Part shown: one piece after another, positions 37,583 to 39,976 of the stretch
Layout: each line of letters begins with the position of its first letter
Numbering within the stretch: position 1 is the first letter of the stretch
NCBI RefSeq assembly: GCF_000443995.1
Contig: NZ_AUMC01000003.1
Span: 434,001 to 498,000 of the forward strand
Length of the DNA stretch: 64,000 bases
From: Bacteriovorax sp. BAL6_X
GTDB taxonomy: Bacteria; Bdellovibrionota; Bacteriovoracia; Bacteriovoracales; Bacteriovoracaceae
Reading direction: 5' to 3'
Translations under genes and position numbers: made by a program
The notes under the pieces: model-generated
Database searches by the model: none
The model's input: the letters and a program-made list of their open reading frames with translations, nothing else
Told to the model about the DNA's origin: nothing

Positions 37583-37611
37583 TTTACACAAAGCACAGTT
37601 ACTGATAGATT
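37583..37611 (+). promoter_or_regulatory. Candidate promoter of the S6-S18 / dnaB cluster
   Basis: TTTACA (37583-37588), a 17-base spacer and TAGATT (37606-37611), just downstream of repeat element A. The -10 is a modest match, so another start site further upstream is possible. Confidence 0.35.
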
Positions 37612-37613
37612 AG

Positions 37614-37658
37614 CACCACATTTGACCGTTAATTTACTCGCTTCCCTGTGGTGGGGAG
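37614..37658 (+). promoter_or_regulatory. Structured leader of the S6-S18 gene, possible r-protein autoregulatory site
   Basis: CACCACA (37614-37620) can pair with TGTGGTG (37647-37653), enclosing a loop with a CCG triplet (37626-37628). An alternative hairpin, CTTCCC / GGGGAG (37641-37658), follows the CCG. Leaders upstream of rpsF in many bacteria carry a CCG-containing motif bound by the S6:S18 complex. The first stem forms only if transcription starts upstream of 37614. Confidence 0.35.
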
Positions 37659-37690
37659 GCCAATAATAACTATTGTCCAGGAGATAAAGT

Positions 37691-38308
37691 ATGATTTATG
37701 AGTTAGCATTAGTAGCTCACGCGGGCGCAACAGAAGATCAGCAAACAGCTCTTAAGAACCTAGTAGCTGAAGTTGCAAAAAATTACGAAGGTGAAGTCCT
37801 TTTAACTGATGATTGGGGAATGAGAACATTTGCTCAAACTGCCAAAAACGGTTCAAAAACAGGTAACTACATCTATTTCATCGTTTCAGGTAACAAAGAC
37901 CTAAACACAGAACTTCAAAGACGTTTCAAAATCAACGAAGACGTTCACAAGTACCTTATCATTAAATTAGCTGATAACAACGAAGCTGCTGAAGCAGTTG
38001 TTAAAGGTTACAAAACTCCATTCTCAAAAGCTCACCCAGGTTCACAAACTGATGAACTAGAAAAAGGTGCAGAAAAAGATAAGAGAAGATTTGCTAAGAG
38101 AAAGAACTGTTGGTTCAAAGCAAACAGCATCACTGCAGACTGGAAAGATCCAAAGACTTATAACTGGCTAATCAACGAATTTGGTAAGATTCAACCATCA
38201 AGAGTTACTGGTGTTTCAACTAAGCACCACAGATGGGCACAATCTGCAATTAAGAGAGCAAGAAATATTGGTCTAGTTTCTCACGTTAGAGGTGACTTCG
38301 CTCACTAA
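37691..38308 (+). CDS. rpsF-rpsR: Ribosomal protein S6-S18 natural fusion
   Basis: One uninterrupted 205-aa frame. Residues about 1-100 are S6 ('MIYELALVAHAG', 'WGMRTFAQTAKNG', 'GNYIYFIVSGN', 'INEDVHKYLIIKL'), then a linker of about 30 aa, then S18 (about 129-205): 'KRRFAKRKNCWFK', 'DWKDPKTYNWLINEFGKIQP', 'SRVTGVSTKHHRWAQSAIKR', 'ARNIGLVSHV'. There is no stop and no in-frame ATG, GTG or TTG near the junction, so S18 cannot be made separately in the usual way. S6 and S18 are neighbours as a heterodimer on the 30S platform, which makes a fusion sterically plausible. AGGAG precedes ATG 37691. Confidence 0.93.
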   Translation: MIYELALVAHAGATEDQQTALKNLVAEVAKNYEGEVLLTDDWGMRTFAQTAKNGSKTGNYIYFIVSGNKDLNTELQRRFKINEDVHKYLIIKLADNNEAAEAVVKGYKTPFSKAHPGSQTDELEKGAEKDKRRFAKRKNCWFKANSITADWKDPKTYNWLINEFGKIQPSRVTGVSTKHHRWAQSAIKRARNIGLVSHVRGDFAH

Positions 38309-38349: not shown

Positions 38350-39360
38350 ATGAACGATAAGAAACCAAACACATTTACACTTATCTCAAAAGATAACTTC
38401 ACAATTGGGAAGTTGCTCTTCTTATGTGTTGTGAGTTTGATCTTAAGCGTTGCTTATCCACTAGGTGTATTTTCACCGCTTCCAGTGGCATTTGCTTTCT
38501 TGATCTATGGAAACTTAAAGACGCTTGTGACTTTCGGTGTAACGATTGTTTTCTGCTTTATTGCTGCTCAATCGAGCGACTCTTTCTTAATCCTTGCTAA
38601 CTCGGCGTATGTTTTATTCTACGCTGTTATCATTGGTTACTTAAGTGCTGCGACTATTTTGCGCAATGAAGATCCTGTAAAAGGACTATTAAAGAGAGGA
38701 CTTATCTTACTACTCGTAATCTTCGGAATCATGGGGGCGATTGAAGTGATTTTTCCTTCAACAATCTCAACGACGATTACAACTTCAGTAAATGAAGGTT
38801 TGTCACAATTAAAGAATTCGCCAGATTATAAAGAACTTATTGCTCGCGGTGGAGAAGTCGCAGCAACTTATCAAAGTGTTTTCGAGAACCCTGATGATAT
38901 CATTAAGAGAATCTATCAGTGGGGATTCGCTGTTATCTTTGTAAGTACATTCTTTATTCTATGGCTAACGGTTTTCATGCTTTTAAGAAATGCAAAGTTA
39001 TGGAAAATGCTTCATGGCTACAAATATGGTCTAAAGCACTTTGTGCGCTTTCAAGTGCCTGAGTACTTTGCCCTTATAGTAGTTGTTGGGCTAGCTCTCT
39101 TCTTAGGTGGAGAGTATATCGGTGGTGAGATTATTGAGGTTATTGGCCTTAATATCTTACTTTGCTTAGGAATATTCTATTTCTTTCAAGGAATGGGTGT
39201 TTACTTAGACTTCTTAAAATATATTAAGGTGACTGGGTTTGTTCGCTCAATTCTTGCGATTATGACTATTTTCTTTGCTCATCGTTTTATTGCGATTGTT
39301 GGCCTTTTAGATTATTGGGTCAACTTTAGAAGATTTTTTAAAAATAATAAGGAGATATAA
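38350..39360 (+). CDS. DUF2232/YybS-like membrane protein
   Basis: A 336-aa polytopic membrane protein with about eight TM helices, including pairs near 25-70, 75-105, 118-140 and 198-220, and four toward the end. It sits between rps and rplI/dnaB, the place where DUF2232 (YybS-like) proteins are found in many bacteria, and its N-terminal layout fits. The function is unknown. It is two bases from rplI. Confidence 0.65.
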   Translation: MNDKKPNTFTLISKDNFTIGKLLFLCVVSLILSVAYPLGVFSPLPVAFAFLIYGNLKTLVTFGVTIVFCFIAAQSSDSFLILANSAYVLFYAVIIGYLSAATILRNEDPVKGLLKRGLILLLVIFGIMGAIEVIFPSTISTTITTSVNEGLSQLKNSPDYKELIARGGEVAATYQSVFENPDDIIKRIYQWGFAVIFVSTFFILWLTVFMLLRNAKLWKMLHGYKYGLKHFVRFQVPEYFALIVVVGLALFLGGEYIGGEIIEVIGLNILLCLGIFYFFQGMGVYLDFLKYIKVTGFVRSILAIMTIFFAHRFIAIVGLLDYWVNFRRFFKNNKEI

Positions 39361-39361
39361 A

Positions 39362-39976
39362 ATGAAAGTTATTCTTAAAGAAACTGTAAAGTCTCTTGGT
39401 AACGTTGGTGAGATCGTTAACGTTTCAGCTGGTTATGCAAGAAACTTCCTAATACCAAATGGTGCTGCAGTTCTTGCTGATGAATCAAACACAGCTCAAG
39501 TTAAGCACTTTGAAAAACTACTTGCTAAGCAAGTTGCTGCTGATAAAGCAGAAGCAACAAAAGTTGCTGGTACAATCAATGGTCTAAACATTGAACTAAT
39601 CAAAAGAGTTGGTACTAACGGTAAACTATTTGGTTCTGTTACTACTCACGAGCTTTCTCTTGAACTAGGTAAACTAGGTCACAACGTAGAAAGAAGACAC
39701 CTTCTTCTTGAAAACCCAATCCGTGCGGTTGGTAGCTACGATGTTAAAGCTAAGATCTTCAATGGTGTTGAAGCTGCTTTTACAGTAACTGTAAAAATGG
39801 ATCCAGCACAAGAAGAAGAAAACAAGAAAAAAGCAGAAGAGCTAGCTGCAATGAAAGCTGCTCAAGAACTACTTGCTAAAGAGCAAGCAGAAGCTGCTGC
39901 TTCAGGTGACACTTCTGGTGAAATGACTGAAGAAGAAAAGTTAAAAATGGAAGCTAATAGAATTCTAAGAAGCTAA
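39362..39976 (+). CDS. rplI: Ribosomal protein L9 with C-terminal extension
   Basis: A 204-aa L9. The N-terminal rRNA-binding domain has 'MKVILKETVKSLGNVGEIVN', then 'GYARNFLIPNG', followed by the connecting helix and the C-terminal domain ('NGKLFGSVTTHEL', 'GSYDVKAKIFNGVEA'). Typical L9 ends near residue 150; here about 55 extra residues follow, rich in Glu, Ala and Lys, probably a charged helix ending 'EEEKLKMEANRILRS'. AAGGAG precedes the ATG. A terminator follows. Confidence 0.95.
   Translation: MKVILKETVKSLGNVGEIVNVSAGYARNFLIPNGAAVLADESNTAQVKHFEKLLAKQVAADKAEATKVAGTINGLNIELIKRVGTNGKLFGSVTTHELSLELGKLGHNVERRHLLLENPIRAVGSYDVKAKIFNGVEAAFTVTVKMDPAQEEENKKKAEELAAMKAAQELLAKEQAEAAASGDTSGEMTEEEKLKMEANRILRS

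Follow-up and report, generated by a model that had tools for sequence, protein, structure and literature searches.

The ribosomal proteins bS6 and bS18 of Bacteriovorax sp. BAL6_X are encoded as one polypeptide by a fused rpsF-rpsR gene, and this S6-S18 fusion is real, present as a single copy, conserved, and subject to selection. Quite probably, both the bS6 and the bS18 site of each 30S subunit are occupied by this one polypeptide, which would also repress its mRNA with S6 and S18 already joined. The gene was found in the window, the whole stretch of 64,000 nucleotides that was analyzed, with the following parts and downstream neighbors:

37691..38308, plus strand: fused rpsF-rpsR gene (bS6-bS18), 205 amino acids, a single open frame from ATG to TAA, stop codon included
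37691..37972, plus strand: bS6 domain, residues 1–94 (PF01250 at residues 3–92; AlphaFold model)
37973..38083, plus strand: linker, residues 95–131, approximately 37 residues, with no in-frame ATG, GTG or TTG
38084..38305, plus strand: bS18 domain, residues 132–205 (PF01084 at residues 147–195; includes K188 and R191)
38350..39360, plus strand: next gene of the operon, DUF2232 membrane protein (PF09991, E-value 2.9e-13)
39362..39976, plus strand: rplI, ribosomal protein bL9 (PF01281 and PF03948)

Both domains were detected with Pfam. Ribosomal_S6 (PF01250) matched residues 3–92 with an E-value of 5.1e-16 (59.1 bits against a cut-off of 27, profile positions 2–90 of 90), and Ribosomal_S18 (PF01084) matched residues 147–195 with an E-value of 1.3e-15 (57.7 bits against a cut-off of 21, profile positions 3–51 of 52). 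These matches and the 205-codon open reading frame bear out the initial annotation, which had read complete S6 and S18 signatures in one frame. The NCBIfam model for S18 (TIGR00165) matched residues 134–199 with 53.5 bits, above its cut-off of 38.75, and the model for S6 (TIGR00166) matched residues 1–93 with 40.1 bits, slightly below its cut-off of 42.9. Because the S6 half falls just below this cut-off, a pipeline that depends on TIGR00166 alone would label the protein as S18 and list S6 as absent. Codon reading of the window gene from the end of S6 (approximately residue 94) to the start of S18 (approximately residue 132) revealed neither a stop codon nor an ATG, GTG or TTG, in agreement with what had been noticed at the junction. 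The in-frame link that had been proposed also holds, but not its length of about 30 residues, since the domain boundaries give approximately 37.

Whole-genome searches (3.23 Mb in 10 contigs, 99.98% complete) found one S6 match and one S18 match, both in the fused gene, so the presence of a separate rpsR or rpsF elsewhere in the genome, raised at the outset, is excluded. Because these are the only copies, the fused bS6/bS18 would be expected in the 30S subunit. The bS21 protein, which adjoins bS18 on the 30S platform, is encoded by a separate gene in this genome.

The distribution of the fusion was analyzed in 129 genomes of the class, which comprise one family and 48 genera. An S18 match was obtained in 118 of these genomes and an S6 match in 119, and in 110 of the 118 genomes with an S18 match both domains were in the same open frame on one contig. 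These fused frames have 203 to 252 codons and occur in approximately 40 of 46 genera, and S18 is present, once each, in all 73 good-quality genomes of the class. Among named relatives, the fusion was found in Bacteriovorax sp. DB6_IX (74% identity), Bacteriovorax sp. BSW11_IV and a Halobacteriovorax marinus isolate. A scan of the named genomes with the single fused protein as query gave no match, and an alignment query of these genomes returned 80 loci. The matches listed for the remainder of the phylum included no fused frame, their S18 frames having 74 to 162 codons, and S6 has a frame of its own in 16 outgroup genomes, often on a different contig from S18. The fusion is thus a trait of almost the whole class, with some split members.

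Outside the class, rpsF lies on another contig than rpsR or distant from it in G129, G132, G244, G181 and G205 (families f2–f10), families in which the rpsF/rpsR operon is broken up, whereas in the class of the window the two genes are fused. In a distant member of the phylum (G264, L032), an S6 frame (1145–1435) and an S18 frame (1432–1680) on the minus strand overlap by a few bases, an arrangement that might represent a precursor state for the fusion.

The S18 match lies outside an S6-S18 frame in 8 genomes of the class. Truly split genes, in which a stop follows S6 and the start codon of S18 is located downstream, were found in four genera: in G058 and G059 (g21), G060 (g22), G064 (g26), and G020 (g6). 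In G071 (g30), a fusion-type linker contains one in-frame TAA (L062, minus strand, 1701–1703), and there is no ATG, GTG or TTG between this linker TAA and the S18 domain; the stop is either an assembly error, the mark of a recent split or a case of recoding. G110 and G120 were rejected as splits because contig breaks lie inside the fused gene, as indicated by overlapping contig ends (L064 and L009) and by an S6 frame that enters the S18 start at the end of the contig (L097). A second S6 in G074 (L098, G074:C102) was rejected as a native copy because it is closest to S6 proteins of other families of the phylum, and it is probably on a contaminating foreign contig. The occurrence of four split genera and one with a linker stop in the same class indicates that the covalent S6-S18 link is not indispensable.

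The split members also bear on the origin of the linker. The first part of the linker matches the S6 tail that precedes the stop in these members (KNYKSPF, KNYKCPL or KNYRSPF), and its last part matches the N-terminus of their S18 (DKDRRMFSR). The conserved linker positions belong mainly to the old S6 tail (Lys-x-Tyr-x-x-Pro) and to the old S18 N-terminus. These matches suggest that the linker is built from two older pieces, an S6 tail and an S18 N-terminal extension.

Trees were built from rpoB alone and from rpoB combined with proteins encoded in the main ribosomal operon (multi-gene), and in both the split genera are near the base of the class. In the multi-gene trees, g21 and g22 form a group with the window clade (support 100), G071 is next to them, branching outside the group formed by g21, g22 and the window clade (support 81), and G064 is basal or beside the other main clade. 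Either one early fusion was undone by later splits in a few of the genera, or two fusions arose from tightly linked, long-tailed genes. That fusion occurred separately in each of the two main clades, which would be compatible with the mechanism proposed below, is a real possibility, though somewhat less likely than not. Parallel fusion would need little, given that split members already have both the KNYKSPF tail of S6 and the DKDRRMF extension at the N-terminus of S18. On the multi-gene tree, a minimum of 2 changes is required if the genome with a stop in its linker is not counted. A single clade of all fused genomes is rejected by the concatenated proteins under LG+G4, but it is allowed by rpoB alone (p-AU 0.56). 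The position of G071 and its fusion-type linker with a single TAA suggest an ancestor in which the two genes were fused, followed by a split. Because this is a lone stop in an otherwise fused linker, G071 favors splitting, and it does so as well if the TAA is an assembly error, in which case G071 is fused.

The structure of the fused chain was predicted with AlphaFold2 from 52 aligned fusions (mean pLDDT 85.9, pTM 0.80). Residues 1–117 of the model align to S6 chains of E. coli and Vibrio, with Z-scores of up to 16.3 and an rmsd of 1.6 over 104 residues, suggesting that the S6 half folds as a normal S6. The structure-search listing was filled by S6 chains alone; the S18 half matches solved S18 chains by sequence. 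Among the best 60 of 126 matched PDB sequences, none spans the two halves, each covering S6 or S18 alone. In our proposed mechanism, the S6 half and the S18 half of the single chain would each fold normally, and the flexible linker would let them take their usual neighboring sites on the 30S platform, so that S6 and S18 would always be made and assembled 1:1. The fused chain would also act as the S6:S18 repressor by binding a hairpin and a CC in its own leader and blocking the Shine-Dalgarno. We infer that the chain remains intact in the ribosome, which would force 1:1 assembly of S6 and S18.

The main alternative to this uncleaved chain is that the fusion is translated whole and a protease then cuts the linker, which would yield a ribosome with ordinary S6 and S18 and equalize only their synthesis. 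In the AlphaFold2 model, confidence is low in the linker (pLDDT 61–66 at residues 121–140), and the linker is charged and varies in length between 30 and 45 residues across 56 fusion genes, features that speak in favor of cleavage. However, dN/dS in 11 close pairs was 0.141 in the linker, 0.146 in S6 and 0.049 in S18, which indicates that the linker codons are under purifying selection, as strongly as S6. As in addition no single sequence motif stands out in the linkers as a cut site, we regard cleavage as unlikely. Far less probable is that S18 is produced also, or only, by internal initiation in the fused frame. An in-frame ATG is found near the beginning of S18 in some relatives, in a few of them preceded by a weak Shine-Dalgarno-like stretch, but 36 of the 56 linkers, that of the window gene included, contain no ATG, GTG or TTG, and the candidate starts in the remaining linkers are almost all without a suitably spaced Shine-Dalgarno. 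Internal initiation thus does not account for S18 in general. The chance that a sequencing or assembly error hides a stop and a start in the window genome, which the initial annotation had named as a possible refutation, is negligible because the open in-frame junction is repeated in 110 genomes of approximately 40 genera from independent assemblies.

Autorepression by the fused chain, the second part of the proposed mechanism, would act on the region upstream of the gene, where we located the following elements:

37603..37611, plus strand: extended -10-like element TGATAGATT, by inspection only
37636..37683, plus strand: rpsF-leader-like RNA, with ACTC at 37636–37639 and a 9-bp hairpin formed by 37640–37648 with 37652–37660
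37677..37683, plus strand: 3' part of the leader, with CC at 37677–37678 and the Shine-Dalgarno AGGAG at 37679–37683, conserved across the leaders of the class

In E. coli, repression of the rpsF leader requires both S6 and S18, which form a heterodimer before binding rRNA (PMC4647458). The class leaders are located approximately 50 bases 5' of the start codon and consist of (A)CUC, a hairpin closed by GC...GC, a spacer, CC and the Shine-Dalgarno, the latter two reading CCAGGAGG or CCGGGAGG; in the window, the Shine-Dalgarno AGGAG is 7 bases 5' of the ATG of the fused gene. When compared by script and by eye, the leader of the E. coli control showed the same layout, with CCUUGCCUCC, hairpin, GGAGGC, spacer, CCG and UAAGGAG. 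Common to the E. coli rpsF leader (PMC4647458) and the window are thus the hairpin just 5' of the Shine-Dalgarno, the upstream strand complementary to the Shine-Dalgarno, and the conserved CC. Pairing with the Shine-Dalgarno differs, with CUC facing GAG in the class of the window and CCUU facing AAGG in E. coli, and for the window leader binding is a prediction. In 57 class leaders, the stem had a mean of 7.5 bp compared with 3.5 bp in shuffles that preserved base composition only, and all six standard pair types occurred at stem positions 5–8, a strong covariation. A scan that covered the window and 12 relatives gave only chance matches in Rfam, which may lack an rpsF_leader model.

On the protein side, K188 and R191 of the S18 half are invariant in 52 fusions and equivalent to Lys60 and Arg63 of E. 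coli S18, which contact rRNA and the conserved leader cytosines (PMC4647458). Judged from sequence, the regulatory leader of the S6:S18 pair is retained in front of the fusion, and the fused protein would be expected to bind this leader. Among split members, the leader layout is still seen in g26. In g21 and g22 (L019 in G059, L017 in G058, and L065 in G060), the rpsF-leader layout upstream of S6 is no longer recognizable, other hairpins are present (e.g., CACACAATA...TATTGTG) and the Shine-Dalgarno is further downstream. Extended -10-like elements of the TGNTA type are located some tens of bases 5' of the leader hairpin in many relatives of the class, and this element is a likely candidate for the operon promoter.

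Compared with the E. coli operon rpsF-(priB)-rpsR-(rplI), the window has the same two protein families, the same order of genes, rplI downstream, the leader layout and the S18 Lys/Arg pair, but it has one polypeptide, no priB between the two halves, and the DUF2232 gene between the fusion and rplI. Fusions of rpoB and rpoC occur in Helicobacter and Wolbachia. Like the S6-S18 fusion, they join in frame, across a lineage, adjacent operon genes that encode touching subunits of a universal machine, which in their case is RNA polymerase and not the ribosome. The fusions of ubiquitin with S27a and L40 are cut, releasing ubiquitin. In these eukaryotic proteins (e.g., PMC10296562), a ribosomal protein is likewise made within a natural fusion, but two ribosomal proteins are not joined to each other. 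The initial annotation knew of no standard description of an S6-S18 fusion, and we likewise found no earlier description in the open-access literature searched, a coverage that mostly leaves out subscription journals. The fusion is therefore apparently an undescribed ribosome variant.

Few parts of bacterial gene content are as rigid as the ribosomal proteins, and natural fusions of two of them seem to be rare. Marker-gene sets that count S6 and S18 separately would miscount in these genomes. On balance, we lean towards the view that across the class, Bacteriovorax-type predators included, ribosomes carry bS6-bS18 as one protein that is loaded on the 30S platform as one unit, and that a one-chain autorepressor replaces the heterodimer regulator of other bacteria. 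The fusion would make the S6:S18 heterodimer obligatory, and the class would thus offer a natural experiment in the order of assembly, in stoichiometry and in feedback control.
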